A DNA stretch of 39,415 bases, taken from positions 1-39,415 of the forward strand of contig JABXJT010000046.1 in the NCBI GenBank assembly GCA_013375455.1, given 5' to 3'. Numbering within the stretch: position 1 is the stretch's first letter; every line of letters begins with the position of its first letter. Source of the DNA: Candidatus Helarchaeota archaeon (GTDB lineage: Archaea; Asgardarchaeota; Lokiarchaeia; Helarchaeales; HEL-GB-A). The notes under the pieces are model-generated. The model was not told the DNA's origin and did no database searches. It saw only the letters and a program-made list of their open reading frames with translations. The translations under genes and the position numbers were made by a program. Positions 4,457 to 37,031 of this stretch are shown one piece after another.

Positions 4457-4936
4457 TCACTCTTTAATTTTATTTTGCTTAAAATTCTCAATAAATGTTC
4501 TAATTTCATTTAACACATTCGTTTTTATCGTTTCGATTCTCAAGACTAAATCTTTCATAAGTTCCCAATTCAAATCAAATGAGTAAGCATGCCTTGAAAA
4601 ATGCCTAAATCCCAGATATTTCCTTAAATATTTGCATGTATTTTCGTTCAGAACCTTATAATTTCGATTTTTAGTACGTTTTATCATTTGGTCAAGAAGT
4701 TCTATATGCCATTTTTCACCATAAGGTATTTTCCCATCTATTTTTCTAGCTATTTGCTTAAATATATTTTCCAATCCGTTATAAAATGAATGCAATAACA
4801 TAGCTAATGCGTTTAATTCAATGAAATCTGGCTCTTGGTCTTGCACTTTTTTTAATAAGGCTAGATAGGGTTCGAGAAGTTTCTCAATTTTCCTAATCTC
4901 GAATTTAATATCTTCGATGACCTTCTTATGTTGCAA
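4457..4936 (-). CDS. HepT-like HEPN ribonuclease toxin
   Basis: A 159-residue helical protein with the HEPN motif RHFSRHAY, which fits the Rx4HxY signature of HepT toxins. In the characterised family the Arg and His form the RNase site, and the Tyr is AMPylated by the MntA partner to neutralise the toxin. The gene overlaps the end of the MntA-type antitoxin gene by 11 bases, the usual order antitoxin then toxin. The N-terminal helix is rich in Lys and Glu and may form the dimer interface. It is followed after 6 bases by a GTPase gene, an unusual operon neighbour. Toxin activity is inferred from the motif and pairing. Confidence 0.87.
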   Translation of the reverse strand: MQHKKVIEDIKFEIRKIEKLLEPYLALLKKVQDQEPDFIELNALAMLLHSFYNGLENIFKQIARKIDGKIPYGEKWHIELLDQMIKRTKNRNYKVLNENTCKYLRKYLGFRHFSRHAYSFDLNWELMKDLVLRIETIKTNVLNEIRTFIENFKQNKIKE

Positions 4937-15219: not shown

Positions 15220-16620
15220 ATGAAAGTCGTTCTAATCTATCCTGGTGTGATTCTTAAAACGCCTACCATAGAAAAGGAATATAAGGACGTCCCTAACTTC
15301 AATTTACCGTTAGGAATTTTATATTTAGGGCAAGTGCTAAAAGATAACGGGCATGATGTTACATTATATGACCATTATGTCACTGGAGAACCGGTTGAAT
15401 CTGTGGTGGATTGGTTAAAAACAATAAATCCAGATATCGTTGGATTTTCTGTTTTAACTGCTAATCTTAATACTGCAAATGCAATTGCTAAAAACGCGAA
15501 AGAATGGAATCCCAATCTCATTACAGTCTATGGCAGCTATTTGCCCACCTTCTGTGCGCGAGAAATCTTAACCGATTGCAAATATGTAGATATTTGTGCT
15601 CGCGGCGAAGGAGAACATACGATTGTTGAACTCGCAGATGCTTTAGAAAAAAATAAACCACTAAAAAATGTCTTAGGGATTTCATATAGGCATAATGAAA
15701 AGATAGTGGAGAATCCTGATCGACCTCTCATCCAAGATTTAGATTCGATTTCATTCCCTAAGCGCGATTTGATTCGGCAATCTTACCAATTTTATGGAAA
15801 AATCGCCACGATCATCACGTCTCGAGGGTGCCCGTATTCCTGTCATTTTTGTTGTTGTTGGAAATTTTGCAAACGTCAATGGCGACTACGTTCCATTGAA
15901 AATATAATTGAAGAGTTAGCATATCTTCGGGCTAACGGATATAGAGAGTTATTATTTACGGATGATTGCTTCAATGCTAAACCAAAAAGAATCATGAAAT
16001 TATGTTATTTGATGAAGAAAGAGAAACTTGATTTTGCTTGGCATACTCTAGGGCGCGTGACTCAGAGCGAACCTCAATTTTTGAAGCTGATGGTCAACGC
16101 TGGTTGTAAAACATTGACATATGGCATCGAAAGCGCGAATCAACGCATACTCGATTATTATAGAAAGAAAGCCACTCCAATTATGGCTGAGCAAGCTGTA
16201 AAAAATGCCAAAAAAGCTAGAGTTGAAAATATTGGGGCAGGATTCATTATTGGAGCGCCCACAGAAACGCGTGAAGAGATTTTAAATACGGTGAGATTTG
16301 GTTTTAAGCTTCAAAAGTATGGGCTCAATAATCTTCAATTTCAGATGCTCTACGTGACTCCAGGTACTACGCTTTACGATGAGTTCGTCGAGCAAGGTCT
16401 CATTAACCCCGAGAAAGATTGGAACAAAGCGATCCCAGCAGTAGATCGTTATCCAAATTCCATAAGTAGCAAATATCTTGAACACCTATCACGAATAGCG
16501 TTCAGGGATTTTGTATCTAGTAAGAGTTTAATTATTTCTGAATATTTTAAATCGCTTAAAAGCATGTATCGAATGAAGGCGATCTCCCGTATTCTCCAAG
16601 CAGGCGGAAGAAATTTTTAA
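15220..16620 (+). CDS. B12-binding-domain radical SAM enzyme 1
   Basis: 466 residues. About 1-150 form a cobalamin-binding-like Rossmann domain (KVVLIYPGV strand, LGILYLGQVLKDNGHDV helix-strand, ARGEGE). The canonical DxHxxG base-off motif is not seen (YDHYVTGE instead). The radical SAM core has C204-x3-C208-x2-C211 for the 4Fe-4S cluster, extra Cys just after it (CCCWKFC), TDDCF, GIESANQRILDYY and IIGAPTET. The last 70 residues are helical and basic. Families of this layout include methyltransferases, ring-forming enzymes and the GDGT ring synthases GrsA/GrsB; the substrate is unknown. It is most like copy 3 (18652). Confidence 0.9.
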   Translation: MKVVLIYPGVILKTPTIEKEYKDVPNFNLPLGILYLGQVLKDNGHDVTLYDHYVTGEPVESVVDWLKTINPDIVGFSVLTANLNTANAIAKNAKEWNPNLITVYGSYLPTFCAREILTDCKYVDICARGEGEHTIVELADALEKNKPLKNVLGISYRHNEKIVENPDRPLIQDLDSISFPKRDLIRQSYQFYGKIATIITSRGCPYSCHFCCCWKFCKRQWRLRSIENIIEELAYLRANGYRELLFTDDCFNAKPKRIMKLCYLMKKEKLDFAWHTLGRVTQSEPQFLKLMVNAGCKTLTYGIESANQRILDYYRKKATPIMAEQAVKNAKKARVENIGAGFIIGAPTETREEILNTVRFGFKLQKYGLNNLQFQMLYVTPGTTLYDEFVEQGLINPEKDWNKAIPAVDRYPNSISSKYLEHLSRIAFRDFVSSKSLIISEYFKSLKSMYRMKAISRILQAGGRNF

Positions 16621-16656
16621 TCTCTGATGGATTAGAATTTTAAAGATAAGGGATGA

Positions 16657-16902
16657 TTATTCTGGAGTGGTTTCTTTTCGCCTGAGCAAAAACAAATCAA
16701 CTAATCCCTTGATATTACCCTGTAGGGAAATTTTCACGACGTTTTCCCTGCCATACCTATCGATTAATCTCTTTAACTCGCGCCTTAAGAAGCGGGAAAA
16801 TTGAATCAAAATTAAGGCGAGGAGAATGGAAAAGATAGAAAAGAGAACTGTTGTAATCATAGGCAGAACATATTTGGTCCAGATTGACGTCATTTCAAAC
16901 AC
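16657..16902 (-). CDS. Small single-span membrane protein of radical SAM island (C)
   Basis: 81 residues: one membrane helix (about 12-35), then a basic amphipathic helix with RRELKRLIDRYGRENVVKI and a tail GLVDLFLLRRK. It shares the position and the RYGRE/GRDE pattern of the other island partners but is the most diverged. It lies 8 bases downstream of radical SAM gene 2 on the same strand, so the two are surely co-transcribed. ATG at 16902 or at 16893. Confidence 0.68.
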   Translation of the reverse strand: MFEMTSIWTKYVLPMITTVLFSIFSILLALILIQFSRFLRRELKRLIDRYGRENVVKISLQGNIKGLVDLFLLRRKETTPE

Positions 16903-16910
16903 TTCTCAAC

Positions 16911-18302
16911 TCATTTTGATTTTCTTCTAGCTATATTAAAAATATTTTGAAGCCGATAGGGGCTTTTTACAGTCCGAAATATTTCTTTTAATAGAAATTT
17001 AGGGCGTGAAAGAAATTCTACAAATGCTTTATCAATTAATTTTTCAATAATTTCACGCTTAACTGCAGTTGGATAAATATCAGATGCAATTACATACTTA
17101 TTCCAGTCCTTCTCTTCGTTGATTAGTCCTTGTTTCACGGCTTCATTCCAAATTTCCGAACCTAAAAGAACATGTAATAATTGATACTGAAGGAACGTTA
17201 AGTCAAGCTCTAAGCCAAATTTTAAGGTTCTAATTATTTCTTGAACGGTTTCATCAGGACCACCAACCACGAATAAACCAGCAATATTTTCTATTCCTGC
17301 CTTCCTGGCGTTTTTGATAACCTTTTTGGACAATTCTGGGGTGATATTTTTATTATAATAATCTAGCATCCTTTGGCTTGCACTTTCTATCCCTAGCATT
17401 AAGTTATTGCAATTGGCATAATGCATTGTCCGAAAAACTTCTTTAGATCCTTTGTCTACCCTGCCCTCACAACTCCAAACCATATCAATTTTTTCTTTTC
17501 TCATTCTTTGACATAATTTTACAGTTCTTTTTTGGTTTACGATGAAACAATCATCCACGAAGCTAAATTCTTCATATCCTCTACTTTGTAAAAAGTGTAA
17601 TTCGGTCAAGATGTTTTCTATTGAACGTGGTCGCCATATTTCGCGTGAATCAGAAACTAAATGCACCGCACAGAATTTACATCTAAAAGGACAACCTCTA
17701 GACGTGGCAAGAACTGTAAATTTGTGGGGGCCTATTCGATAATTAAAATCTACTAATTTCTCGCGATCTGGAATTGGAATCGCGTCCAAATTTCGATTTA
17801 AGGGGGGTCTGGGGTTTGATTTAATCAAATCGTGTTCGCGGTAACTGAGCCCTGGGATCTCTTTCAAGTTCCTGCTCTTCATAACACTCCCAACGAATTT
17901 GGGAAATGTAGTTTCTGTTTCACCTCTAAGACAATAGTCAATATATTCGTATTTGCTAAGGAGTTGCGTGTAGGCAAGGGTGGCTAACACGTTTCCAAAA
18001 ACGATAATTAAATTATCATTCCATTCTTTAGCCAATTTTGCAATTTGGAGTGAGGACTCTAATGAAATGGTAAGAGGTGATAATCCTAGTATCTCAGGGT
18101 TTCTTTTTTTAATCCAATCCATTACTTCCGAATAAGAATACCCCAAAACATCTTGGTCTAGGATTTTTACTTCGTGTCCTTCTCGGCTTAAAATTTCTCC
18201 ATTATATAATAATCCTAAAGGTGGCCACGATTTTTGCCGCGTCTTAATGCCTAATTCTTGATGTAAAACAGGTGCTGGATTTATTAAGACAATACGAGCC
18301 AC
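16911..18302 (-). CDS. B12-binding-domain radical SAM enzyme 2
   Basis: 463 residues from a GTG start. The N-terminal cobalamin-binding-like domain (RIVLINPAP, PPLGLLYNGEIL) carries ILDQDVLG where DxHxxG would be, so the lower axial His is absent. The cluster Cys are C204, C208 and C211 (SRGCPFRCKFC). The GIESASQRMLDYYNK and VVGGPDET segments follow, then a helical tail RPKFLLKEIFRTVKSPYR. It sits between two small membrane-protein genes on the same strand (27 bases upstream, 8 bases downstream), a three-gene operon. Substrate unknown. Only about as similar to copies 1 and 3 as to copy 5, so it is a distinct subtype. Confidence 0.9.
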   Translation of the reverse strand: MARIVLINPAPVLHQELGIKTRQKSWPPLGLLYNGEILSREGHEVKILDQDVLGYSYSEVMDWIKKRNPEILGLSPLTISLESSLQIAKLAKEWNDNLIIVFGNVLATLAYTQLLSKYEYIDYCLRGETETTFPKFVGSVMKSRNLKEIPGLSYREHDLIKSNPRPPLNRNLDAIPIPDREKLVDFNYRIGPHKFTVLATSRGCPFRCKFCAVHLVSDSREIWRPRSIENILTELHFLQSRGYEEFSFVDDCFIVNQKRTVKLCQRMRKEKIDMVWSCEGRVDKGSKEVFRTMHYANCNNLMLGIESASQRMLDYYNKNITPELSKKVIKNARKAGIENIAGLFVVGGPDETVQEIIRTLKFGLELDLTFLQYQLLHVLLGSEIWNEAVKQGLINEEKDWNKYVIASDIYPTAVKREIIEKLIDKAFVEFLSRPKFLLKEIFRTVKSPYRLQNIFNIARRKSK

Positions 18303-18329
18303 TTTAATCAGTCTAGTGATGGTGTTATT

Positions 18330-18569
18330 TCATTCCTTTGAGCTTATTTTTTTCTTTGGAGGATTAAGGAGGATGGTTATGACACCAAAAACTCCCATGA
18401 TGTTGATTAATTTAAAAGTTTCGTCCCTTCCATAAGTTTTGAATGCCTGGTCAATCTTTTTTCTCATAAAAAACGAGATTGATATTAGCATTGGACAAAT
18501 GATAATGGAAAATACAAGCAATGCTATTGAAACTATTTTCATGATGAAGACGTTACCATTTTCTGGCAT
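18330..18569 (-). CDS. Small single-span membrane protein of radical SAM island (B)
   Basis: 79 residues, closely similar to the protein at 14906: membrane helix (about 9-33), then SFFMRKKIDQAF, GRDETFKLINIMG, FGVITILL and a basic C-terminus. It is first in the operon with radical SAM gene 2 and divergent from radical SAM gene 3. High similarity between A and B in both the membrane and tail parts argues for direct duplication with the neighbouring radical SAM gene. Confidence 0.72.
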   Translation of the reverse strand: MPENGNVFIMKIVSIALLVFSIIICPMLISISFFMRKKIDQAFKTYGRDETFKLINIMGVFGVITILLNPPKKKISSKE

Positions 18570-18651
18570 TGTTATCTAGATTTGAATGCTAAGTATTAAA
18601 ATATTAAATTTATCTAATTTAATCCAAGAAAAATCGAATGTTGAAAGAGAA

Positions 18652-20043
18652 ATGAAAGTCGTTGTGATCTATCCCGGGGTTGGTTTTTCAGAAGATAAGT
18701 CTGATGAAAAACCAAGAGTTACTCCTACCATCGTTATACCCTTGGGCATATTGTACATTGGGCAATTTTTAAAGGACCAAGGGCATAAGGTCAATCTATT
18801 TGATCACTTTGTTTCTGATCTGTCGATTAATGAAGTTGTTAATTGGATAAAAAAACTGAATCCCGATGTGCTAGGATTCTCGGTTGTAAATGCAAATCTA
18901 TTTACTGCGAATGCCATTGCAAAAGCTGCAAAAGCTTGGAATCCTAATTTAATTACAATCTACGGCGGTTATTTGCCCACGTTCTGTGCTCATGAAATTT
19001 TGACAGCATTTGAATACGTGGATTTCTGTGTACGGGGTGAAGGTGAATATATAATTACTGAGCTCATGGATGCCTTGGAACAAGGGAAACCAGTCAATGA
19101 GATTCTAGGACTTACATTTAGAGATAACGGAAAAGTAATAGACAATCCGGATCGACCTTTGATCGAGGATTTAGATAGTCTTCCTTTTCCAGATCGCGAT
19201 TTACTGAAGCAAGCCTATCTGTTCCACGGTAAAATCACCACTGTAATTTCATCACGAGGTTGTCCGTTTAGCTGTAAATTTTGTAGCTGCTGGAAATTTT
19301 CTCGAAGGAAATGGAGATTACGCTCCATGGAGAACGTCGTCGAGGAAGCACTGTATTTACAATCTAAAGGATTTAAAGAACTCATATTCACGGATGACTG
19401 CTTCACTGCAAGGAAGGACCGGGTTTTAAGACTATGTTACTTAATGAAAAAAGAAAAGCTAGATTTTGCCTGGCACACTCTAGGACGTGTGAGCCAGAGT
19501 GATACTCAATTTTTAAGGACGATGGTTGATGCAGGTTGTGTGACACTGACATATGGTGTGGAAAGCGCGAATCAACGCATACTTGATTACTATAATAAGA
19601 GAATTAATCCGGAGATGGCAATAGATGCAGTTAAAAATGCCAGAAAGGCAGGAATAGAAAATATTGGAGCTGGATTCATAATTGGAGCGCCCACGGAAAC
19701 GCGAGAAGAAGTATTAAATACTATTAAATTTGGATTTAAGCTCCAAAAAATAGGTCTGACTAATCTTCAACATCAGATCTTATTTGTTGCACCGGGCACT
19801 CAACTTTATGAAGATACTGTTGCCCAAGGGTTACTTGATCCAAAAACTGACTGGGTTCGTGGCATTCCTGCAGTTGATTTATATCCAGATTCCCTAAAAA
19901 AAGATTACCTATTAGCCCTCTCTGAATGGTCATTCAAAGTTTTTCTCACCAACAAGGGTTTTATCCTTAAAGAATTTTTAAAATCTATAAAGAGTTCGTA
20001 TCGAATACAAGCAATTTTCAGTCTTCTTCAAGGAAGACCGTAA
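18652..20043 (+). CDS. B12-binding-domain radical SAM enzyme 3
   Basis: 463 residues from the ATG at 18652, which matches the N-terminus of copy 1 (MKVV-IYPGV). An in-frame ATG at 18586 would add 22 non-homologous residues. Cluster Cys are C204, C208 and C211 (SSRGCPFSCKFC) followed by SCWKF. TDDCF, GVESANQRILDYYNK and IIGAPTETREE are shared with copy 1, which it resembles along its whole length. The cobalamin-like domain lacks the DxHxxG His in its usual form (FDHFVSDLS). The basic helical tail (KEFLKSIKSSYR) recurs in all copies and may contact membrane or partner. Confidence 0.9.
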   Translation: MKVVVIYPGVGFSEDKSDEKPRVTPTIVIPLGILYIGQFLKDQGHKVNLFDHFVSDLSINEVVNWIKKLNPDVLGFSVVNANLFTANAIAKAAKAWNPNLITIYGGYLPTFCAHEILTAFEYVDFCVRGEGEYIITELMDALEQGKPVNEILGLTFRDNGKVIDNPDRPLIEDLDSLPFPDRDLLKQAYLFHGKITTVISSRGCPFSCKFCSCWKFSRRKWRLRSMENVVEEALYLQSKGFKELIFTDDCFTARKDRVLRLCYLMKKEKLDFAWHTLGRVSQSDTQFLRTMVDAGCVTLTYGVESANQRILDYYNKRINPEMAIDAVKNARKAGIENIGAGFIIGAPTETREEVLNTIKFGFKLQKIGLTNLQHQILFVAPGTQLYEDTVAQGLLDPKTDWVRGIPAVDLYPDSLKKDYLLALSEWSFKVFLTNKGFILKEFLKSIKSSYRIQAIFSLLQGRP

Positions 20044-20068
20044 TATATCTGAGAGTGAGAGAGGATTT

Positions 20069-20518
20069 TTGAAAGTTAAAGACTTTAATTTTAAAAATGT
20101 TCTAATGAATTTTAGCTATTTCATGTGCATTTACATAATTACAATGATGATATTTCTTATCTGCGTTAATCCAATTATAAACTTTTATGAAACGGGGTTA
20201 ACGTTTCCCTTAATTGGTAAGCTATCCTACCCTGCATTTATGTTAATAAATGGTATGTTTGCAGCTATGTTTGGTATATTGTTTCTTTTTGTAAAATTGA
20301 GGTATGATTTAAATCTTGATAGACTTCTTCTTTTAGGAGTCACGATTCTGGCAGTGTTAATTCCATTAGATGCACACATAACTATTTACTTTTTTGCTCC
20401 AGAAGAGCATCCAAATGCCTATTGGATTGTGAATGATTTACTTCTTTTGTTTATAGTAATTGGAATCCTTCTTTTTCTCATTATCTATGAATTAAAAAAA
20501 ACTAAACACGTGGATTAA
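20069..20518 (+). CDS. Four-span membrane protein, unknown function
   Basis: 149 residues with four predicted membrane helices (about 13-34, 48-72, 83-108 and 117-140), short loops and a basic C-terminus. It begins with TTG 25 bases after radical SAM gene 3 on the same strand, preceded by GAGAGAGGA, so it is probably co-transcribed. I recognise no family. Acidic and His residues at helix ends (PLDAHITIYFF, PEEHPNAYW) are the only notable polar features. Confidence 0.7.
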   Translation: MKVKDFNFKNVLMNFSYFMCIYIITMMIFLICVNPIINFYETGLTFPLIGKLSYPAFMLINGMFAAMFGILFLFVKLRYDLNLDRLLLLGVTILAVLIPLDAHITIYFFAPEEHPNAYWIVNDLLLLFIVIGILLFLIIYELKKTKHVD

Positions 20519-20573
20519 TATCGGTTTCCCATTGAAGATATATAATTTGCTCTTATTTTGAATGAAAGAGTTT

Positions 20574-20798
20574 TTAATCAAATTTAGGCCGCTGTCTTTT
20601 TTCAATCAAATCAAAAATACCAAATAATCCCTTATACGATAGCAATCTTATGACGTCATCTCTTTCTTTTTCTTTTAATGCCCTTCTTAAGACTCCCTGA
20701 AAGAATTTAGAGAAAAACACCGCTCCGAATAGAAGTGGAAGAATTAAAAATAGAATTAATGTTTTGAATAAGATTTTCATCATTTTATCGTCTTTCAT
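20574..20798 (-). CDS. Small single-span membrane protein of radical SAM island (D)
   Basis: 74 residues: membrane helix (about 9-32), then VLRRALKEKERDDVIRLLSYKG with the FGIFDLIEKR tail. It fits the island pattern +RR...RDDxIRL...GLFGxxDL. It lies 4 bases downstream of radical SAM gene 4 on the same strand, so it is co-transcribed and probably translationally coupled. Confidence 0.7.
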   Translation of the reverse strand: MKDDKMMKILFKTLILFLILPLLFGAVFFSKFFQGVLRRALKEKERDDVIRLLSYKGLFGIFDLIEKRQRPKFD

Positions 20799-20802
20799 TC
20801 GA

Positions 20803-22197
20803 TCACACTATTCCTCGTTTGAAATTTTTTATAGATTGGATGATTATGTCAACGTAATAATCGTTTTTTAAAGCATCAAAGATTAATTTAATAAGATATC
20901 TTTTATTGAAGAATCGCACGAATCCTTCGTTAATAAGCTTTGAAATTACCTTTGTTGGCACGGAGGTAGGACAGATATCGGAGACTTGTAAACTTTTTTT
21001 CCAATCATCGTCATTCGGTGTATATAACTCCCTTTCTATTAATTCTTGATAAATTGAGGTTATGGGAATCGTTTCTAAAATTTGAAAGACTACGAAAGAA
21101 AGGTCTAATTTATTAGCGAATTTGACGGTAGCTGCGGCTTCAGCAAAAGTTTCATCTGGTGCGCCCAGTACAAAAGATCCATAAATAATTTCCATTCGTG
21201 CTTTCTTTGCCGTTTTGATGGCTTGTTCAATTTGATTGATCGTGATGCCCTTCATATAATAATCTAAAATTCGTTGGGTTCCACTTTCGATACCGAATAC
21301 TACCTTCTTATAATTGATTGAAACCAGGGCTCTCAACATATCATATGCAGCATTATCAATCCTGCAATCCCCTGAAAAATTGATATCATCTAATTGATTT
21401 CTCTTAATTTCAGCACATATCTTAAAGGTGCGCTTTTTATTCAAAGTAAAATTATCATCTACAAATAAAATATCTTTGAAACCCTGGTCTTTTAATAATT
21501 TTATCTCTTCAATTACATTACTGGCTGAGCGAGGGCGCCATTCCTTTCCTAATACCGCCGAAAAAAAACAGAACCGACACTTGAATGGGCATCCCCTGCT
21601 TGATAGGATTGAGGTCGATTTGTGTTGGAGGTGATAATTAAAATCTATCAGTTTTCGATCAGGGATTGGAAGTTCATCCAGGTTCTTGATTTTATCCGCT
21701 GCTGGTGTAGATTTTATGATATTATTTTCACGAAATGTAAGCCCCTTAATTTCCTTGACGTTCTGTTTCTTTTTAAAGAGATGATTAACGAGATTCAGCA
21801 GAATATATTCCCCTTCGCCCCGAATGCAATAATCAAAATCTAGTTCCTTCATAAGTTTTTCAGGGAAAAAAGTAGCAAAATAATTTCCAGCAATCGTAAC
21901 AATATTAGGGTTCCAAGCCTTCAATCTTTTCAATAAGTCAGCTGTAGTCCATAGGTTATCAAGCAACACTGAAAAACCTACGATCTTGGGATTCAATTTC
22001 TGAATGAGCTTCATTAACTCTGTATTTTTTTCTCCCGTAACGGCTTGGTCATAAACTTTAACACTATAACCGTTATCACTCAGAACCTGCCCTAAATATA
22101 ATACCCCTAAAGGGGGAACAGCGATTTGTTTTACGAGATATTCTCTTTCTCCTTGTTCGTCAACAAGATTTGCCAGATTTAATAATAAGATGTCCAT
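20803..22197 (-). CDS. B12-binding-domain radical SAM enzyme 4
   Basis: 464 residues. The N-terminal cobalamin-like domain (DILLLNLANLV, PPLGVLYLGQVL) has VYDQAVTGEK in place of DxHxxG. Cluster Cys are C203, C207 and C210 (SSRGCPFKCRFC). VDDNFTLNKKR, GIESGTQRILDYY and VLGAPDET follow. The C-terminal tail (RYLIKLIFDALKNDYY) is again helical and basic. It begins 62 bases from the divergent GH3 gene 2, and the small membrane protein D follows it. Confidence 0.9.
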   Translation of the reverse strand: MDILLLNLANLVDEQGEREYLVKQIAVPPLGVLYLGQVLSDNGYSVKVYDQAVTGEKNTELMKLIQKLNPKIVGFSVLLDNLWTTADLLKRLKAWNPNIVTIAGNYFATFFPEKLMKELDFDYCIRGEGEYILLNLVNHLFKKKQNVKEIKGLTFRENNIIKSTPAADKIKNLDELPIPDRKLIDFNYHLQHKSTSILSSRGCPFKCRFCFFSAVLGKEWRPRSASNVIEEIKLLKDQGFKDILFVDDNFTLNKKRTFKICAEIKRNQLDDINFSGDCRIDNAAYDMLRALVSINYKKVVFGIESGTQRILDYYMKGITINQIEQAIKTAKKARMEIIYGSFVLGAPDETFAEAAATVKFANKLDLSFVVFQILETIPITSIYQELIERELYTPNDDDWKKSLQVSDICPTSVPTKVISKLINEGFVRFFNKRYLIKLIFDALKNDYYVDIIIQSIKNFKRGIV

Positions 22198-22259
22198 TTA
22201 CCAATAATTTCTCCATTACAAATAAATAAATTATCATCCTACAACTTTTTTGAAGTGAG

Positions 22260-23801
22260 TTGATCGTGACGCTTATCCGATTTCTTGGCAGTATCTTTGC
22301 TAAACCACTCTATCGTTTTTTAATGAATCCATTTAAGGATCCGCTAAAAATCCAACGAAAGGTTCTGTCGAGAATTCTAAAAATAAATCAAAATACGCAG
22401 TTCGGAAAAGAGCATAAGTTTCATCAAATTTCATCCATAAAAAAATTCCAACAATCCATGGTGCCCCAAACTTATGATTATTTTCGCCCATACATTGACG
22501 CCATGACAGGGGGAAATTCGGATATTTTGATTCGTGGGAACCCAACATATTGGGGAAGAACTGCAGGCTCCACGGGTTCTCCAAAACTAATACCCATTAC
22601 GAATTACAGCCTTAGAAATGCAACCAATGGGACACTTCGTATTTACCTTTCTTATATTGCTGAAAATCCACGAGAACATTCTAAATTTCTTGATGGAACT
22701 GTCTGCTTTTTTAGTGCAAATCCTGCCTTGGAATACATAAACAACATACCAGTTGGATTTGGAACTGGAGTTTTTAGTCAATCGAGTCAAAACCAGATTT
22801 GGAGCCCCATTTTTCAAAAAAGAACATATTCTACGGGACATTTATTTGAAATTCAAGATATTCAACGACGCTATCAACGTCTTACTCGTGAAACTACACG
22901 CAAAGATATTCGAGTCTTTTCAGGTGTCACGACTGTTGTTTTGAATCTCTTAGAAGTAATTTTGAAATATTCTAGGATTAAAAATCCAAACATAAAAGAT
23001 ATAGCGACTTTATTTCCGAATTATCACTTTTCAATTCTCGGTGGAGAAGCACCGAAATTCTATGAAGATCGTCTTTTTTCATTAATTGGTAGAAAGATTG
23101 ATTATAGAGAAGTTTATGGGGCAACGGAGGAAATCATCGGGGTACAACTCCAAGAAAAGCCTGGTCTAACTCCTCTCTTAGATGCGAATTTTTTAGAATT
23201 TTCGCCACTTGATTCAGAAGAACGATTGCTCATTCAGGAAATAAAAAAGAATGTTGATTATAAGATTATCATCACGAATTTCAATGGTCTTTATGCATAC
23301 ACGCTCGGTGATGTCATTAAATTCATTAGCACTGATCCCCCTCTTTTTCTTTTCTCGCATCGCGAAGGAACAATTAACATGGCTTCTGAAAAAATGACGC
23401 TTAAGCAAATCTCCTACGCTCTTACTGCTAGTAACCAAGAACATAATTGCACGATTATTGATTATTGCGTTATTGGTAGATACAATCCAAAACCGCATTA
23501 TATCATAATCCTTGAATTCGCCAACCAGAATCCACCGAAGGAACAGAAATATCTTAAATCCTTAAATCAAAACTTGATGAAAATAAATCCCGTATACCGA
23601 GAGCAAATTCTCGGCATTCAAGCCATTATAGAACCAAAACTCTTGATCGTAAAGAATGGCACCTTTTTTGAATTGGAACAGCAGAATCTAGAAGCCGGAT
23701 TACCCATGGGACAACATAAAATCCAACATCTTTCTACAGATGAAAAATTATTAAACAAATTTTCTGATTACGTAATCAAAGAGGTAAATTTAAGCAGTTA
23801 A
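22260..23801 (+). CDS. GH3-family acyl-adenylating enzyme 2
   Basis: A 513-residue paralogue of the enzyme at 13372, similar along its full length. Marks are FGKEHKFHQISSIKKFQ, the ATP loop TAGSTGSPKLIP (Thr-Ala and Ser-Thr swaps relative to copy 1) near residue 102, YREVYGATEEIIGVQ, and YTLGDVIKF. Start TTG at 22260, or GTG two codons later. It is the first gene of a tight plus-strand operon: acyl-CoA dehydrogenase begins 30 bases later. That context suggests it activates, or releases as an amide or ester, the same acyl group the following genes oxidise. Confidence 0.88.
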   Translation: MIVTLIRFLGSIFAKPLYRFLMNPFKDPLKIQRKVLSRILKINQNTQFGKEHKFHQISSIKKFQQSMVPQTYDYFRPYIDAMTGGNSDILIRGNPTYWGRTAGSTGSPKLIPITNYSLRNATNGTLRIYLSYIAENPREHSKFLDGTVCFFSANPALEYINNIPVGFGTGVFSQSSQNQIWSPIFQKRTYSTGHLFEIQDIQRRYQRLTRETTRKDIRVFSGVTTVVLNLLEVILKYSRIKNPNIKDIATLFPNYHFSILGGEAPKFYEDRLFSLIGRKIDYREVYGATEEIIGVQLQEKPGLTPLLDANFLEFSPLDSEERLLIQEIKKNVDYKIIITNFNGLYAYTLGDVIKFISTDPPLFLFSHREGTINMASEKMTLKQISYALTASNQEHNCTIIDYCVIGRYNPKPHYIIILEFANQNPPKEQKYLKSLNQNLMKINPVYREQILGIQAIIEPKLLIVKNGTFFELEQQNLEAGLPMGQHKIQHLSTDEKLLNKFSDYVIKEVNLSS

Positions 23802-23831
23802 TTAATCAATTCTTTGAAATGAGGTATTTGT

Positions 23832-24974
23832 GTGGAAAATTTATTTCTTAATGAAAGGGAAATTGGATTAAAATCTGAAATAAGCGAGTTCCTAACAGAG
23901 CATTTGGAGCCCATTCAAGATCAAATTAATTTGAAAAAAGAAATACCCATTTCTTTGATACGAAAGATAGGGCAAAAAGGAATGTTTGGACCTTTAATTC
24001 CAAAAAAATATAAGGGAACCGATCTGGGCATAATTGCTCATTGCATTATTACGGAAGAACTTTCCAAGCGGAACGTGGCCGTTTCTGTAACCCGGACTCC
24101 CTGTATTTTAGATGGATTTACTCTTAAGACCCACGGAACTGATGAGCAAAAAGAGAAATATCTGAAGAAAATTGCTATGGGAGAAAAGCTCTGTAGCATT
24201 TGCGTCACGGAAGAGGGAGCCGGATCGGATGCTGCGGGTGTTAAAACCACTGCTGTAAAGGAGGGGGATGAATATATCTTAAATGGGTCAAAGAAATTCA
24301 TTACAAATGCAGGAATTGCTGATTATTATTTCGTTTGGTGCTTGACAAATCAAGAAGTGGATCCTCATTTAGGCATGAGTGTGCTTTTAGTAGAGAAAGA
24401 CACGCCTGGCTTCGAAATTGAAAGTCCTTATGGCTTGTTAGGTTTAAATGGTATTAAAAATGGGGTATTAACTTTCAAAGACGCACGAGTTTCAGCAGAG
24501 AATTTGATTGGTGAGGAAGGGAGGGGATTTCAAATTCTAATGTCCACCTTTAACGTTGAAAGAATAACACTAAGCTCCGAATGTAACGGAATTTCTCTTG
24601 CTGCTTTAGAAGCATCGAAAAATTACGCGAAAAAACGAATTCAATTCGGGAAACCTATTGCCTCATTTCAAGGCATTCGTTTAAAGATAGCTAATATGGC
24701 TACAACCCTTCAAGCTGCCCGATTATTAACATACAGTGCCGGGAAACTGGCAACTCAAAATTTGAATTATACAAAAGAAGCATCGATGGCCAAGGCATTC
24801 TCAAGCAAGTCTGCAGTGGAAATCGCACTAGAGGCAGTTCAAATTCATGGTGGTGAAGGATATACCGATAATTATCCAGTAGAGCGGTATTTACGTGATG
24901 CTAAATTCTTTCAAATAGGTGGCGGCACATCTGAAATCCAAAATCTAATAATTGCGCGAGAAGAATTGAAATAA
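23832..24974 (+). CDS. Acyl-CoA dehydrogenase
   Basis: A 380-residue FAD enzyme that makes the alpha-beta double bond in acyl-CoA, normal in length. The N-terminal helical domain is followed by CSICVTEEGAGSDAAG (FAD/substrate region, about residues 118-133) and KKFITNAGIADYY, then the C-terminal helices with AVQIHGGEGYTDNYPVERYLRDAK. The usual EGT Glu near the C-terminus is GGGT here. The catalytic base is probably Glu243 in NVERITLS, the position used by isovaleryl- and long-chain-type enzymes, which hints at a branched or long substrate. GTG start. Second gene of the GH3 operon. A truncated second copy of its C-terminal third is at 28916. No electron-transfer flavoprotein is in the window. 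Confidence 0.93.
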   Translation: MENLFLNEREIGLKSEISEFLTEHLEPIQDQINLKKEIPISLIRKIGQKGMFGPLIPKKYKGTDLGIIAHCIITEELSKRNVAVSVTRTPCILDGFTLKTHGTDEQKEKYLKKIAMGEKLCSICVTEEGAGSDAAGVKTTAVKEGDEYILNGSKKFITNAGIADYYFVWCLTNQEVDPHLGMSVLLVEKDTPGFEIESPYGLLGLNGIKNGVLTFKDARVSAENLIGEEGRGFQILMSTFNVERITLSSECNGISLAALEASKNYAKKRIQFGKPIASFQGIRLKIANMATTLQAARLLTYSAGKLATQNLNYTKEASMAKAFSSKSAVEIALEAVQIHGGEGYTDNYPVERYLRDAKFFQIGGGTSEIQNLIIAREELK

Positions 24975-24989
24975 TAATTAGAGGTTAAA

Positions 24990-25856
24990 ATGATGAATAT
25001 TAAGAAAATCTGTGTTATTGGTGCCGGTATAATGGGTGCTGGTATTGCCCAAGTGGCAGCAGCAGCTGGATATGTGGTTAATTTAGTAGATGTAAATCAA
25101 AAAATTTTAGATAAGGCCTTAGCTAGCATTCGAAAGAATCTAGACAACTTCTTCGTTCGTAAGAACAAAATAACAGCTGAGGATGCTCAGGCAATTGTAA
25201 ACCGGATAACTACGAGTACTGATCGAGAGGCGAGCGTTAAGGACGTGCAGCTAGTTATCGAAGCAATTTTCGAAGATATGGATACAAAAAAGAAACTGTT
25301 CAAAGAATTAGATGAAATTTGTGATGGTGGCGTAATATTGGGATCCAATACATCATCATTAAGCATTACTGAAATCGCATCAGGCGCAAAAAAGCAGGAT
25401 CGGATTGTTGGAATTCATTTTTTCAATCCAGCCCCAGTAATGAAATTGATAGAATTGATTAAAGGTAAAAATACATCCGATGAAACGATAGAAATTATTA
25501 AAAAATTCGCCGAAAGTTTAAAAAAAGTAGTAGTGACTATAAATGATACTCCAGGGTTTGTTACTACACGCCTTCTTTATGTATTATGCAATGAGGCAAT
25601 TAATTTACTTAATGATGATATTGCCAGCGCTGAAGATATCGATACAGCCTGTAAACTGGCGTTTAATTTTCCAATGGGCCCGATTCAATTATCGGATTTA
25701 GTGGGAAACGATGTCTACTTACATATCGGGCGATATTTAGAATCTGCTTTAAGCGAGAAATACAGCCCGAGCCCGCTTTTAGAGAAAATGGTCAAGGATA
25801 ATTTATTGGGGCGAAAGACGAAGAAAGGATTTTATGATTACGGGGAGAAAAAATGA
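24990..25856 (+). CDS. 3-hydroxyacyl-CoA dehydrogenase
   Basis: A 288-residue single-domain enzyme of the 3-hydroxybutyryl-CoA dehydrogenase type, NAD(P)-dependent. The Rossmann motif GAGIMGAGIAQ lies at about residues 11-21. SNTSSLSITEIA and GIHFFNPAPVMKLIEL contain the substrate-site Ser and catalytic His. NDTPGFVTTRLL precedes the C-terminal dimer domain, and the chain ends with KKGFYDYG. It follows the acyl-CoA dehydrogenase by 15 bases and its stop overlaps the enoyl-CoA hydratase start in ATGA. Confidence 0.94.
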   Translation: MMNIKKICVIGAGIMGAGIAQVAAAAGYVVNLVDVNQKILDKALASIRKNLDNFFVRKNKITAEDAQAIVNRITTSTDREASVKDVQLVIEAIFEDMDTKKKLFKELDEICDGGVILGSNTSSLSITEIASGAKKQDRIVGIHFFNPAPVMKLIELIKGKNTSDETIEIIKKFAESLKKVVVTINDTPGFVTTRLLYVLCNEAINLLNDDIASAEDIDTACKLAFNFPMGPIQLSDLVGNDVYLHIGRYLESALSEKYSPSPLLEKMVKDNLLGRKTKKGFYDYGEKK

Positions 25857-26614
25857 GTTCAATGAAATTTACTACTTTATTAGTCGAAATTGAAGAACGA
25901 ATTGCCACAATTACCGTTAATCGCCCCGAAAAATTGAATGCTCTAAATGAGACGGTCAAAGCTGAACTCAAAGATGCATTAAATAATTTGGAACGAGATG
26001 AGCAGGTCGATGTGATTATAATTACGGGCGCTGGCGAGAAATCCTTCGTAGCAGGTGATGACATTGCTGAATTTCCCACTCGTACAAAAGATGGTTTTCG
26101 CCCATTTCAAGCCATCACCCTTCAGATTGAAAATCTACGAAAGCCAGTAATTGCTGCAATCAATGGATACGCCCTTGGTGGAGGAACAGAACTCGCTCTA
26201 GCTTGCGATATACGAATTGCAAGCGAAACTGCTAAGTTCGGACTTCCAGAAATCAGCTTGGGGATCATCCCTGGCGGCGGAGGTACCCAACGCCTACCTA
26301 AAGTAGTTGGGAAAGCTAAAGCGCTCGAACTGATAATGACCGGCGATTTCATTGATGCAAAAACTGCAGAAGATATTGGATTAATTAATATGATTGTACC
26401 GCCTGCAGAACTCATGCAGAGAACCATTGAATTCGCCAAGAAGCTCCTTTCAAAGAGCCAAGTGGCCATTCAATGTGCAAAAGAAGCTGTGATGTATTCC
26501 ACGCACATTCCTATTAAGGAAGGATTAGAAAAAGAACTGGATCTCCTTTGGAAGGCGAAAAATACTGATGAATCGAGACAAAGAATTAACGAATTTCTTA
26601 AAAAGAAGAAATAG
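25853..26614 (+). CDS. Enoyl-CoA hydratase
   Basis: A 253-residue crotonase with both catalytic Glu: GGGTELALACDI and GLPEISLGIIPGGGGTQRL. The CoA-site stretch is NRPEKLNALNE and the oxyanion-hole loop AGDDIAEF. It hydrates trans-2-enoyl-CoA between the dehydrogenase steps. With the two upstream genes it supplies three of the four beta-oxidation steps; a thiolase is missing here, so the operon might stop at a 3-oxoacyl- or 3-hydroxyacyl-CoA or use a thiolase elsewhere. Last gene of the operon. Confidence 0.94.
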   Translation: MSSMKFTTLLVEIEERIATITVNRPEKLNALNETVKAELKDALNNLERDEQVDVIIITGAGEKSFVAGDDIAEFPTRTKDGFRPFQAITLQIENLRKPVIAAINGYALGGGTELALACDIRIASETAKFGLPEISLGIIPGGGGTQRLPKVVGKAKALELIMTGDFIDAKTAEDIGLINMIVPPAELMQRTIEFAKKLLSKSQVAIQCAKEAVMYSTHIPIKEGLEKELDLLWKAKNTDESRQRINEFLKKKK

Positions 26615-26722
26615 CTAGAATAAATTTAGTGAGTGAGAGGAAAAATGAATTAGCACCACAGGAACTCCTGCGCCACTTACTTCATAATATATGTTAATAT
26701 CTTTGATTTTTATTAACGGCAT
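26615..26722 (-). pseudogene. Alpha/beta-hydrolase N-terminal stub
   Basis: An ATG at 26722 opens a frame MPLIKIKDINIYYEVSG followed by PVVLIH, the typical first strands of an alpha/beta hydrolase up to the oxyanion loop. It then breaks off in HFSSHS and a stop, where the family would have HG. The rest of a roughly 260-residue enzyme is missing. The stub directly abuts the broken flavodoxin and probably marks a deletion junction. Confidence 0.55.
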
Positions 26723-26726
26723 ACGA

Positions 26727-27029
26727 ACCACACAAATTCTTGAAGACGCCATCCCAGTAGGCGGGGTTGGGATTTGTGTGCGTGCAGAAAAGGACAACTT
26801 TTTCAGGTGGATCTTCTGCTTATTTAACCAATTTATTTAGTCCTTTTCCAGCGCCATTAGTATATACGCCAGAACCTAGAAAAACATCATCATAGCTGTT
26901 GAGGCTAGTAGGATCAACATCCTTTACAGGTAGGGTAATCAGATCTACCCCTTGCAAGCCTTCCGCCATGCTTTTTGCTATTGCTGCAGTATTTCCTGTT
27001 TGGGAATCATAACAAATTAGAATTTTCAT
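26727..27029 (-). pseudogene. Broken flavodoxin gene
   Basis: From ATG 27029 the frame encodes MKILICYDSQTGNTAAIAKS, the flavodoxin FMN phosphate loop, then DVFLGSGVYTNGAGKGLNKLVK, where an in-frame TAA (26820-26822) interrupts it. Reading on in the same frame gives AEDPPEKVVLFCTHTNPNP and AYWDGVFKNLC, clearly the next flavodoxin strand and loop, before homology ends at the hydrolase stub. The gene thus has both an internal stop and a lost C-terminus. A truncated 69-residue product is unlikely to bind FMN. Confidence 0.65.
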
Positions 27030-27161
27030 ATCTCTTTCACCTATGGGATACTTCAAACCAATTATAGTTAACAAATTTTTATATGCATTGTCATTTGTTA
27101 ATGGGAGGGGAACTCTAGTGTATCTTGATATTTTGATATATCAGAGCAGATCACTCAAGAA

Positions 27162-28655
27162 TTAAATTGCACCTTCCTCTTGGGTCTCGCTGAAGTTCCG
27201 AATGGAAACATTGAGTGAGCGAGCCCCGGCGAAATCACTAAAATTTTGTAGATTACTAAGGACAACCCGGAACAAGTTTCTCAATTTATAGGAACTAGTG
27301 AAGAAACGAAAGAGGGTTTTTAGGATTCTTCGTGGGTTTAAAAAGAAATCCCTAAGTGCTTTTGTGACTATCGGGTTGAGGGTCGCCCTATCCATCCCTT
27401 GCCCTATTTCAAATGCAGTAACACCAGTTTCCCAATACAGTTCTTCATTTATTCGTCCTTCCGCGACGAGTTCAGACCACATATCTGATCCAGGAGTAAG
27501 ACTTAGAAGATTTAATAAAGGCAAGTCGATATCCAGCCGATCCGCAAATCTTAATGTATTTTGAATTTCAGAAAGGGTTTCATCTGGTGCTCCCACGACA
27601 AAGGACCCCATGATGAAAGGGATCTTCGCCTGTCTTGCTTTTTTTACGGCTAATACTGACTGGCTGGGTGTTATACCCTTTCGGTAGTAATCTAGAAGTC
27701 TCTGATTCGCGCTTTCAATACCATAAAATAGAACTCTACAATTTGAAGCCTGCATTCCTCTCAACATTTCTAGAGAGACCTGATCTACTCTACCCTCACA
27801 AGCCCAATCTACATCTATCCGATTTTTTTTCAATTGATTACAGAATTTCAACACCCGCTTCTTATTCACAGTAAAATGATCATCAATAAAGTTCAGGAAT
27901 TTAAACCCCTCATTCTCTAATAGTTCGAATTCTTCTATGATATTTTCAATTGACCGCACCCGAAAACCATAAAAATTATGGGAAGGACAGAATCTACAAT
28001 TGAAAGGACACCCTCTGGACGCTGAAATTGTTGTAAAACCAGAAGGAAATAAGTGTATTCCTCCCACAGCAGGTCTATAGTCATAATTCAGGATTTTCCT
28101 ATCTGGAAATGGTAGTTCATCGAGGTTTTTGAGTAATTCGCGATCCTCATTTCGCCTAATTTTTCCATCTTCCCTATATGTGATCCCTTTTACATTTTTT
28201 AATGATTTCCCTTTTGAAAATGCATCAACTAATTCTAAAAAAGTATATTCTCCCTCCCCTCTCACACACACATCCACAAAAGGATAGGCTTGTAGGATTC
28301 TAAAATCGTTAAATGTCGCGTGCCTGTTTCCAAATACAATTTTAAGGTTAGGATTCCATTTCTTTATTTCTCGTGAAATTATCCGTGAACTAACACTACA
28401 ATATGGGTGTATTAAAGCTGAAAAAGCTACAATTTCTGGATCTCTCCGCTTTATCCATTTTAAAATGCCTTCCAAATACATGTTGTGAGCGGTTTGATCA
28501 ATTATATCTACTTGATAACTGTTATTTTTTAAGATAGAACTGAGATATAAGAGACTTAGAGGTGGAAATAATTGAGTATTGGTAATTCCTTTCCTGCTTT
28601 CCTTCGGTTTGAATACGGGTCCTGGGTTTATTAATACAATACTAAACTTCATCAC
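27162..28655 (-). CDS. B12-binding-domain radical SAM enzyme 5
   Basis: 497 residues, the longest copy. The N-terminal cobalamin-like domain (FSIVLINPGPVF, FPPLSLLYLSSIL) has IIDQTAHNMY at the DxHxxG position, with a His three residues after the Asp but no following Gly pattern. Cluster Cys are C216, C220 and C223 (SASRGCPFNCRFC). IDDHFTVNKKR, GIESANQRLLDYYRK and VVGAPDET follow, and the tail is longer (RRILKTLFRFFTSSYK plus about 40 residues). Unlike copies 1-4 it has no small membrane protein beside it; its neighbours are gene debris on both sides. It begins GTG-ATG with GAGGTG at the start. Confidence 0.9.
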   Translation of the reverse strand: MMKFSIVLINPGPVFKPKESRKGITNTQLFPPLSLLYLSSILKNNSYQVDIIDQTAHNMYLEGILKWIKRRDPEIVAFSALIHPYCSVSSRIISREIKKWNPNLKIVFGNRHATFNDFRILQAYPFVDVCVRGEGEYTFLELVDAFSKGKSLKNVKGITYREDGKIRRNEDRELLKNLDELPFPDRKILNYDYRPAVGGIHLFPSGFTTISASRGCPFNCRFCPSHNFYGFRVRSIENIIEEFELLENEGFKFLNFIDDHFTVNKKRVLKFCNQLKKNRIDVDWACEGRVDQVSLEMLRGMQASNCRVLFYGIESANQRLLDYYRKGITPSQSVLAVKKARQAKIPFIMGSFVVGAPDETLSEIQNTLRFADRLDIDLPLLNLLSLTPGSDMWSELVAEGRINEELYWETGVTAFEIGQGMDRATLNPIVTKALRDFFLNPRRILKTLFRFFTSSYKLRNLFRVVLSNLQNFSDFAGARSLNVSIRNFSETQEEGAI

Positions 28656-34423: not shown

Positions 34424-34834
34424 ATGGCTGAAACGAAAGAGAAAGAAGAAAAGAAGCGATGGGGAATTGCCCACATTTTTTCCTCTTACAACGATACTAT
34501 CGTCCATATCACAGACGTTTCTGGCGCAGAAACGATTGCCAGGTATTCAGGGGGTATGATAGTTAGAGCTGACCGAGATGAAGCAACTCCTTACGCGGCG
34601 ATGCAAGCTGCCTTCCGAGCGGCAAATGAAGCGCGCGAAAAAGGTATAACTTCCCTCCATATTAAAGTTCGCGCACCCGGTGGTCATGGTCCAAAAACTC
34701 CAGGTCCAGGTGCCCAAGCAGCAATTCGCGCATTAGCACGGGCTGGATTACAGATAGGCCGCATTGAAGAAGTGACCCCCGTGCCACATGACGGCACCCG
34801 AAGACCAGGCGGACGTAGGGGTCGCCGTGTGTAA
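34424..34834 (+). CDS. rps11: Ribosomal protein S11 (uS11)
   Basis: 136 residues. The core has [35 protein letters not shown] and [23 protein letters not shown], and the end [18 protein letters not shown] is diagnostic. It lies on the 30S platform near the mRNA exit. A Lys/Glu-rich N-terminal extension of about 12 residues is typical of archaea. Normally Rpo3 follows within a few bases; here a 56-base AT-rich gap and an extra domain intervene. Confidence 0.97.
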
Positions 34835-34890
34835 CTGCATTATAATTCATAATAAAGATTGGTTATAATAATAAATCAGATGAAATAAAA

Positions 34891-36669
34891 ATGGTTAAGT
34901 TTGGAGTTACTACCCTACCATGGGACTTTTCAACTAGAGTAGAAAAGCGTGTGGAATGGTTTAATAAATTATCCGGAATTTCGGTGAAAAAAGAATGGAT
35001 TATTGAATTAGAACATATTCATAATTCATTCTTTTTGGATAATTATGATAAAATTAAGTTAAAACCATACACGATTCACATTTCTCCTTCTAAAAATCTT
35101 TTTACTAATGAAATAGCGGAAACTAGGAAAAGACATGTTAATAAGACGTGTGAAATGATTCAAAATTTTTATATGAAAAGTGGAGGTAAAATAAATCGAT
35201 TTATAATTCATGCTGAAACAATTTCAAGCACAATTCCCTACATGGCTCCCGACAAGAAAAGGATCAACTTTCTCGAAGAATCACTAGAATCTCTCTTAAA
35301 AAAGCTAAATAATAAAGATATTACATTGTATATAGAAAATGTTCCAAAATATAATAAAGAAGGCGGTCGGTCGAGCAATTACTTTTATCGAGTATCCAAG
35401 ATAATTGATGTGATTAAGAGGTTACATGGAAAGGGATATTCAAATGTTTATGTATGCCTGGATGTAGGACATTTACCAAGCCACAAGGCTATTATGAATT
35501 TAAAAAATCCAGAATTTATAAAGCATTTACATGTCCATAGTCCTAAAAAGAAACTTAGGCATTACTGTGATAATCATGGATTGGATATGAATATTTTCCC
35601 AAGTGATTTTTTTCAAAGATTATTCCAAAAATTAACTAATATCGAATCAGTTATTTTAGAACCAAATTTCAGAATTCCTGAACTTAAAGATTATAAAACA
35701 AGTAATGATAGAATCAAGATAATTGAAAAAACCATTAATTATTTAAAATCTCAAATAAAATCAAGAGAAAAACCGGAGAAGAAATTAAAAGAAAAACCAG
35801 AGAAGAAACTAAAAGAAAAACCAGAGAAGAAACTAAGAGAAATAATAATACCACCTGTAATTAGAATTTCTATCCTTGAACAAGAAGGAAATCACCTAAA
35901 AATAATCGTGGAAGGGATTAATCCCTCTCTTGCCAATTCATTGCGGAGAGTGATGATTGCTGAAGTCCCCTGCCTCGCAATTGAGGATGTGTGGATTGTA
36001 GAAAATAATAGTCCACTTTATGATGAGATAATATCACATCGCCTTGGGTTAATTCCATTAAAAACCGATTTAGAAAGTTATGTTCTGCCTGGTGTATGTG
36101 GGTGTGAAGGCGAAGGATGCCCGCAATGCCAGGTTGCATTTACTCTCAAGAAAGAAGCTATTGAAGAACCGATGATCGTATACGCAGAAGACCTAGAACC
36201 TGAAGATCCCGTTATCATTCCTGTCAACCCAAAAACACCGGTAGTGGAATTGGCTAAGGGACAACGAATAGTTCTAGAAGCGTATGCAAAACTTGGGATA
36301 GGAGAAATTCATGCGAAATGGCAACCGGTTGCCACTGTTGCCTATAAATTTTTACCAGAAATTAGAATTAATTATGAAATATGTGAAAAATGCGAAAAAT
36401 GTGTAGATGCTTGCCCCCGACAGATCTTATCCTTTAAGAATGACCGAATTCAAATCTCCAATGCGATGAGTTGCAACCTTTGCAAGGCTTGCGAAGAAGC
36501 CTGTGTAACTGAACCGGACAAGGCAATAAAAGTTGCTTGGGACTCAACTAAATTTATTTTTGCTATTGAATCCAGTGGTGCACTGCCCACAGAAAAAATC
36601 ATTAACATGGCTTGTCAGATCCTAAAAGGTAAAATTAATAACTTTTTAGAGCAATTAGAAACTCTATAG
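34891..36669 (+). CDS. rpo3: Xylose-isomerase-like TIM barrel fused to RNA polymerase subunit Rpo3 (D)
   Basis: 592 residues, more than twice the usual Rpo3 length. About 1-290 form a sugar-isomerase/AP-endonuclease-2-like TIM barrel with its metal-site pattern: HAET, LYIENVP, VCLDVGH, KHLHVHSP, DNHGLDMN, VILEPNF. Residues 293-316 are three copies of EKPEKKLK (last copy ends LR), encoded by a 24-base repeat. From about 318 comes a complete Rpo3: INPSLANSLRRVMIAEVPCLAIE for dimerisation with Rpo11, ISHRLGLIPL, and a ferredoxin-like insert with two full 4Fe-4S Cys sets (C498, C501, C504, C508 and C528, C531, C534, C538). No stop separates the parts, and no ATG, GTG or TTG stands at the normal Rpo3 start (first Met inside RRVMIAEVP), so Rpo3 seems made only as a fusion or its parts are cut afterwards. 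The barrel DNA is more AT-rich than its neighbours. Confidence 0.93.
   Translation: MVKFGVTTLPWDFSTRVEKRVEWFNKLSGISVKKEWIIELEHIHNSFFLDNYDKIKLKPYTIHISPSKNLFTNEIAETRKRHVNKTCEMIQNFYMKSGGKINRFIIHAETISSTIPYMAPDKKRINFLEESLESLLKKLNNKDITLYIENVPKYNKEGGRSSNYFYRVSKIIDVIKRLHGKGYSNVYVCLDVGHLPSHKAIMNLKNPEFIKHLHVHSPKKKLRHYCDNHGLDMNIFPSDFFQRLFQKLTNIESVILEPNFRIPELKDYKTSNDRIKIIEKTINYLKSQIKSREKPEKKLKEKPEKKLKEKPEKKLREIIIPPVIRISILEQEGNHLKIIVEGINPSLANSLRRVMIAEVPCLAIEDVWIVENNSPLYDEIISHRLGLIPLKTDLESYVLPGVCGCEGEGCPQCQVAFTLKKEAIEEPMIVYAEDLEPEDPVIIPVNPKTPVVELAKGQRIVLEAYAKLGIGEIHAKWQPVATVAYKFLPEIRINYEICEKCEKCVDACPRQILSFKNDRIQISNAMSCNLCKACEEACVTEPDKAIKVAWDSTKFIFAIESSGALPTEKIINMACQILKGKINNFLEQLETL
35767..35838 (+). repeat. 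Three tandem 24-base units encoding the EKPEKKLK linker
   Basis: Three nearly identical in-frame 24-base units (35767-35790, 35791-35814, 35815-35838), differing at a few third or single bases, join the TIM barrel and the Rpo3 domain. The unit is charged and Pro-containing, so it gives an extended, mobile linker. Slippage can change its copy number without frame loss. Confidence 0.9.
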
Positions 36670-36677
36670 GTGAAAAC

Positions 36678-37031
36678 ATGGCCAACACAGTCAAAACAAC
36701 AGATCCCCGCAGAAGAAGATTGATTCGCGCATTGCATAAAACAAAAAGAAGAATCTGGAAAACGGTCAGTGAATTCCTCAATAAATCCCGAAGCAATCGT
36801 ATCGTTGTCAATATCGGGAAAATAGATGTCTTCTCTGAAAATAATGATATTGTTCTCATCCCTGGTAAAGTGTTGTCTTCAGGAGAATTATCCAGATCGG
36901 TAACTATTGCTGCATTTTCTTGCTCGAAGAAGGCCAGGAAAAAAATCTTGAAAGCTGGAGGCGAATTTCTAAGAATTGAAGAACTTTTAGTACGAAATCC
37001 AGCAGGATCCAAAGTTAAGTTACTCACGTAG
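36678..37031 (+). CDS. rpl18e: Ribosomal protein L18e (eL18)
   Basis: 117 residues, archaeal/eukaryotic large-subunit protein. RLIRALHKTKRRIWKTVSEFL near the N-terminus, then VVNIGKIDVFS, IVLIPGKVLSSGEL and the GGEFLRIEELLVRNPAGS end all fit the family. It follows Rpo3 by 8 bases, as in other archaea. Confidence 0.96.
   Translation: MANTVKTTDPRRRRLIRALHKTKRRIWKTVSEFLNKSRSNRIVVNIGKIDVFSENNDIVLIPGKVLSSGELSRSVTIAAFSCSKKARKKILKAGGEFLRIEELLVRNPAGSKVKLLT

Follow-up and report, generated by a model that had tools for sequence, protein, structure and literature searches.

Here we describe an open reading frame in which a core subunit of RNA polymerase, Rpo3, is joined to a barrel-type domain that resembles an enzyme. 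The window that we analyzed is a stretch of 39,415 nucleotides (nt) of contig JABXJT010000046.1 (assembly GCA_013375455.1, forward strand), and all coordinates are positions in this window. Between 34891 and 36669 on the plus strand, one frame with an ATG start and a TAG stop encodes a protein of 592 residues, made of a putative TIM barrel (residues 1 to about 288), a charged linker (residues 289-323) and a complete Rpo3 (residues 324-592). With a probability of roughly 0.6, we interpret this frame as a real, recent fusion tethering a metal-dependent enzyme to RNA polymerase in one Helarchaeota-like Asgard lineage. A Pfam scan of the whole protein returned AP_endonuc_2 at residues 74-259 (E 1.2e-9), RNA_pol_L (7.9e-16), RNA_pol_A_bac (1.8e-16) and Fer4. 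Together with the single frame, these matches confirm the barrel-Rpo3 fusion proposed in an initial annotation of this DNA. The order of the domains was also correct in that annotation, but Rpo3 begins at residue 324 and not at residue 318 as it had suggested; the barrel ends near residue 288. The fused frame contains the following features:

34891-35754, plus strand: barrel domain of the AP-endonuclease-2 superfamily (residues 1-288, the end being our choice; PF01261, 40.9 bits for a curated cut-off of 31.1)
35755-35859, plus strand: charged linker with three EKPEKKLK-type units (residues 289-323; 24-bp repeats at 35766-35842)
35860-35862, plus strand: ATT codon (I324) where relatives have their start ATG, from the alignment with relatives
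35860-36669, plus strand: Rpo3 (RpoD) domain (residues 324-592, stop codon included), from model, structure and relative matches
36382-36414, plus strand: first 4Fe-4S motif (C498, C501, C504, C508)
36472-36504, plus strand: second 4Fe-4S motif (C528, C531, C534, C538)

We analyzed the junction for a start codon that could serve Rpo3. A methionine stands opposite I324 in 15 of the 16 close Rpo3 relatives (the exception, P0095, has a recorded length of 255 residues and starts later), and the codon at this position in the fused frame is ATT. The in-frame ATG, GTG or TTG codons nearest to the Rpo3 start are an ATG at residue 233, the last one before it, and a GTG at residue 340, inside Rpo3; a start at this GTG would lose the predicted first strand (residues 325-332) and most of the second (residues 335-341). 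The initial annotation had noted that no usual start codon exists at the boundary, an observation that extends to all three frames, as no ATG, GTG or TTG codon begins between 35724 and 35875 and the one CTG found there (35855) is in frame +1. This frame carries eight TAA stops across the junction, between 35744 and 35858. Given the start-free junction in every frame, we dropped a simple frameshift or a missed start as a reading; we also dropped an intein, because the extra part stands ahead of the entire Rpo3. The repeated linker is likewise borne out: it is lysine-rich and contains a tandem array at 35766-35842 with a period of 24, 3.2 copies and 94% matches. The sequence supports the conclusion that Rpo3 lacks a separate ATG, GTG or TTG start and would be made only as the C-terminal part of the fused frame.

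The Rpo3 part is intact and has two 4Fe-4S motifs, as the initial annotation had claimed. The NCBIfam Rpo3 model PRK00783.1 matched residues 325-591 with 335.7 bits (cut-off 153), the dimerisation (PF01193) and insert (PF01000) domains were both matched, and the nearest solved structures by sequence are archaeal Rpo3 (2pa8_D, E 2.6e-50). The eight cysteines of the two CxxCxxCxxxC motifs (C498-C508 and C528-C538) are invariant in 44 aligned sequences of our choosing. A tree built from 48 rows places the fused Rpo3 with P0093 (support 90/80, below the star of the tool) inside a clade of 17 rows (100/100), and its branch length is 0.20 versus 0.15 for its sister; there is therefore no clear acceleration of the fused Rpo3. 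From its conservation we infer that this Rpo3 assembles into RNA polymerase.

Length and N-terminal domain of Rpo3 were then compared among relatives, a check suggested by the initial annotation. The 16 nearest ones are unfused (255-299 residues, 64-79% identity), and those with a name are Helarchaeota or Promethearchaeota. This search had a length window that shut out proteins of 592 residues, but a search with the whole protein can return them; the latter scored the 7998 candidates with the most words in common and gave 92 hits, one of which is the query. The Pfam domain of the barrel is listed in none of the 91 other Rpo3/Rpb3-type proteins. All four genomes of the order of Ca. Helarchaeota Hel_GB_A (L001) match, and the listed matches are confined to query residues 306 onward. 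In the phylum of G001, which we took, on the basis of Rpo3, as the own phylum of the window, 215 of the 227 genomes match the query (12 have no match at 1e-20); the matches listed again cover query residues 306 onward and lie in open frames of 258-393 residues, too short for the fusion. All 121 genomes of another phylum match, from query residue 298 on and with frames of up to 361 residues. In all, neither the 91 proteins, nor the matches listed for the presumed own phylum (227 genomes), nor the 121 genomes of the other phylum showed a barrel-Rpo3 fusion, and the length of Rpo3 varies little across the genomes searched. Four long archaeal Rpo3 (P0002, P0003, P0007 and P0008) have no second domain over the Pfam cut-off. 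One of them, P0007 (344 residues, archaeal type), shows by eye an unusually long insertion in the insert domain, and its Pfam match begins at profile position 42. We found no published description of such a fusion in the literature searched, preprints and most subscription papers being outside the search. Because near relatives make Rpo3 alone, the fusion looks recent and unusual.

The barrel passes the curated cut-off of PF01261 and, in agreement with the initial annotation, its metal-ligand pattern is largely kept. Eight of the nine metal-ligand columns of endonuclease IV match in the profile alignment (H63, H107, E149, D191, H194, H214, D227 and H229); the ninth, E257, lies outside the aligned part and was assigned by eye only. 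The motif HTSY of the endonuclease IV control reads HISP in the barrel. With an E limit of 10 (although most matches above about 0.1 are removed by filters), no endonuclease IV (nfo) model is listed for the barrel, while an Asgard endonuclease IV control (L078) reaches 324.5 bits with these models, and we rejected the barrel as endonuclease IV proper. Its sole curated match, the CbiR cobamide phosphodiesterase, is sub-threshold (22.4 bits, cut-off 105), and no ketose 3-epimerase model is listed for it, whereas other Asgard members of the superfamily give sub-threshold matches. Structure prediction of the barrel, also suggested in the initial annotation, gave a mixed result. The best Foldseek hits do belong to the superfamily, but at template modelling scores (TM-scores) of about 0.4, with D-psicose 3-epimerase first and the epimerases above Nfo, and with VIA-align other TIM barrels rank equally high on this weak model.

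Searches for where the barrel came from brought little. Among 639 candidate proteins, none matched at E<=1e-3. Solved structures gave no match by sequence with an E limit of 10, and neither did plasmids or phages with a limit of 0.1. No match in viral contigs could be confirmed, PADLOC had none, and PHROG had a single one (E 0.2). Four of 398 genomes in the phylum of G229 and two of 294 in the phylum of G234 gave matches, all six partial (24-35% identity, best 2.5e-7); the five that we re-examined resemble general members of the AP endonuclease 2 superfamily. A single-sequence search matched 0 of the 227 genomes in the phylum of G001, an empty answer that is uninformative because this search had no positive control. 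Of 59 genomes from that phylum, 58 contain the PF01261 profile, so such barrels are common there, although this result does not serve as a control for the single-sequence search. Judged by its sequence, the barrel is nearly an orphan, too divergent for any curated subfamily model. It is also the most AT-rich of the 37 gene segments in the window; the second most AT-rich is 4457-4936 (29.2% GC).

The fused gene lies in the order S13-S4-S11-fusion-L18e-L13-S9, in which all six neighbours pass the cut-off of an NCBIfam model. Its immediate surroundings are:

34424-34834, plus strand: gene of ribosomal protein S11, the native upstream neighbour of rpo3 (PRK09607.1, 232.7 bits, cut-off 182; same place in L001)
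34835-34890, plus strand: 56-nt leader of the fusion, between S11 and the barrel ATG
36678-37031, plus strand: gene of ribosomal protein L18e, the native downstream neighbour (PRK04005.1, 125.5 bits, cut-off 85; same place in L001)

The gene order is identical in L001, where 29 nt separate S11 from an unfused rpo3 of 269 residues. Comparison of 34871-34892 (the last 20 nt of the leader plus the AT of the start codon) with the leader of this unfused rpo3 revealed 18 identical positions out of 22; 23 of 2000 shuffles were as good, and the score was 14 versus 11 for the best of nine other leaders in the window. This one comparison, made on AT-rich sequence, gives only a hint that the barrel came in at the start of rpo3 and acquired the rpo3 leader.

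We propose that a gene encoding a metal-dependent TIM-barrel enzyme, itself divergent and AT-rich, was joined in frame ahead of rpo3, at or near the rpo3 start codon, that the native start was lost, with ATT now standing where relatives have ATG, and that the charged linker expanded through duplication of a 24-bp unit. Rpo3 would now be produced only as the C-terminal domain of the 592-residue protein, would still pair with Rpo11 and would seed polymerase assembly. The barrel would be carried on a flexible linker at the exposed N-terminus of Rpo3, with one barrel per polymerase, and might, more tentatively, be catalytically active as a phosphoester hydrolase or a sugar-(phosphate) isomerase type. 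In a structure model of the fusion built from 44 aligned sequences that we chose, ten-residue means of the predicted local distance difference test (pLDDT) range from 78 to 97 for Rpo3 and from 37 to 79 for the barrel, and they stay below 50 at residues 288-320. According to PMC5300874, Rpo3 with Rpo11 starts polymerase assembly, and growth of Methanosarcina was unchanged with an N-terminal His tag on Rpo3; N-terminal tags on Rpb3 are described as likewise tolerated. It is therefore plausible that the polymerase carries the barrel on its surface through a flexible link. It is a more doubtful extension that a working metalloenzyme has become covalently part of the assembly subunit, such that its reaction or ligand would act at, or report to, every transcribing polymerase. 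If the enzyme domain is indeed obligatory, the polymerase core can carry a domain of 290 residues on one subunit, and the fusion would offer a natural means of probing how transcription might be linked to metabolism or to nucleic-acid chemistry.

The interpretation as a real fusion that tethers an enzyme draws on features shown by sequence: one uninterrupted frame, the absence of starts, a complete Rpo3, conserved gene order and unfused relatives. Activity of the barrel, and any effect of such activity on transcription, is what we infer. Several points weigh against it. The evidence comes from the assembled sequence of one lineage, as one protein cluster with a single member recorded on two contigs, maybe both from one sample. 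The structure model of the barrel is a weak one, with a mean pLDDT of 57.9, and the tolerated tags are short peptides, compared with 290 residues here. A second rpo3 may exist elsewhere in the source genome, of which assembled contig sequence was analyzed. Finally, stops in the upstream frame would cut off rpo3, so that an open barrel frame is no proof that the barrel is needed.

This last point leads to a possible, if clearly less probable, alternative, in which the fusion is real and the barrel is a tolerated passenger, kept only because rpo3, which is essential, would be silenced by any stop or frameshift in the barrel. The fusion occurs in one lineage only among the relatives searched, the 94% linker repeats and the lowest GC of the 37 segments are signs of recency, and no relative of the barrel was found in the 227 genomes of the presumed phylum (the search without positive control); against this, no fewer than eight ligand-type positions have been preserved, which is also to be expected if the event was recent. 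Even as a passenger, the barrel would clearly illustrate how fusion to an essential gene can make another gene difficult to lose. It is unlikely that free Rpo3 is made as well, whether through a protease that cuts the lysine-rich linker or through weak initiation at the ATT. The low confidence of the linker prediction is what a flexible stretch would give, and the ATT lies exactly at the ancestral start position, but ATT is a rare start codon and the 22 nt upstream of it (AGAAATAATAATACCACCTGTA) have no Shine-Dalgarno-like stretch, a weak point as the leader of the barrel ATG is likewise without a clear one. An assembly or sequencing artefact joining two separate genes would fit a single lineage known from assembled sequence, yet we regard it as very improbable: both flanks are syntenic with L001, the start-free junction and the open linker next to a stop-filled frame +1 would need several coordinated errors, and the protein is recorded on two contigs, which may or may not be independent. 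Least probable of all is that RNA polymerase carries the barrel as an AP endonuclease of DNA repair, serving transcription-coupled repair (the initial annotation had raised a coupling of transcription to repair), since the barrel fails the endonuclease IV and CbiR models and the repair coupling is therefore unsupported, the change to HISP and the ranking of D-psicose 3-epimerases above Nfo arguing in the same direction; for the sugar-phosphate sensing that it had also raised, the evidence points neither way.

Elsewhere in the window, five B12-binding radical SAM type genes (BchE/HpnJ-like, all below model cut-offs) are spread over about 13 kb on both strands (15220-28655). Two genes at 13372-14904 and 22260-23801 reach 162.3 and 145.2 bits with the model of the lyso-ornithine lipid synthetase OlsH, below its cut-off of 620, and both adjoin a radical SAM gene. 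A protein of 913 residues (10463-13204) combines a region resembling clostripain (115.9 bits for a cut-off of 550) with a C-terminal signal of the Heimdall-CTERM kind that falls just short of its cut-off (22.9 versus 24 bits).

Compared with known systems, the fusion shares with archaeal Rpo3 (RpoD, subunit D) carrying a ferredoxin-like domain a full-length Rpo3 part, both 4Fe-4S motifs and the native operon place, but differs from it by 323 extra N-terminal residues and by the lack of an ATG, GTG or TTG start of its own. The barrel shares the family profile and most metal-ligand positions with the AP endonuclease 2 superfamily (endonuclease IV, sugar epimerases, CbiR); it differs in passing no curated subfamily model and in matching no solved structure by sequence at E up to 10. 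Lineage-specific N-terminal additions are described for Rpo6 in Asgard and Bathyarchaeota (PMC13257274) and for AC40 (PMC13374769). The additions described there are disordered, charged or helical (with one helix-loop-helix fragment in Thorarchaeota Rpo6), in contrast to the enzyme-like domain found here. Four eukaryotic Rpb3/RPAC1-type hits list another Pfam domain and thus join a polymerase subunit of the same family to a second domain in one predicted chain, none of them with the TIM barrel of the fusion. The nematode P0064 has a glycosyltransferase domain, N-terminal as in the fusion, and three Coemansia fungi (P0070, P0072 and P0083) have a MADS/SRF domain, which in P0072 is C-terminal and DNA-binding-like. 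All are unverified predictions; P0064 may be two merged neighbours, and the Coemansia arrangement, which recurs in several isolates, could be a real eukaryotic fusion or a repeated merge of gene models. Given these four proteins, fusion as such should not be called unprecedented in this subunit family.
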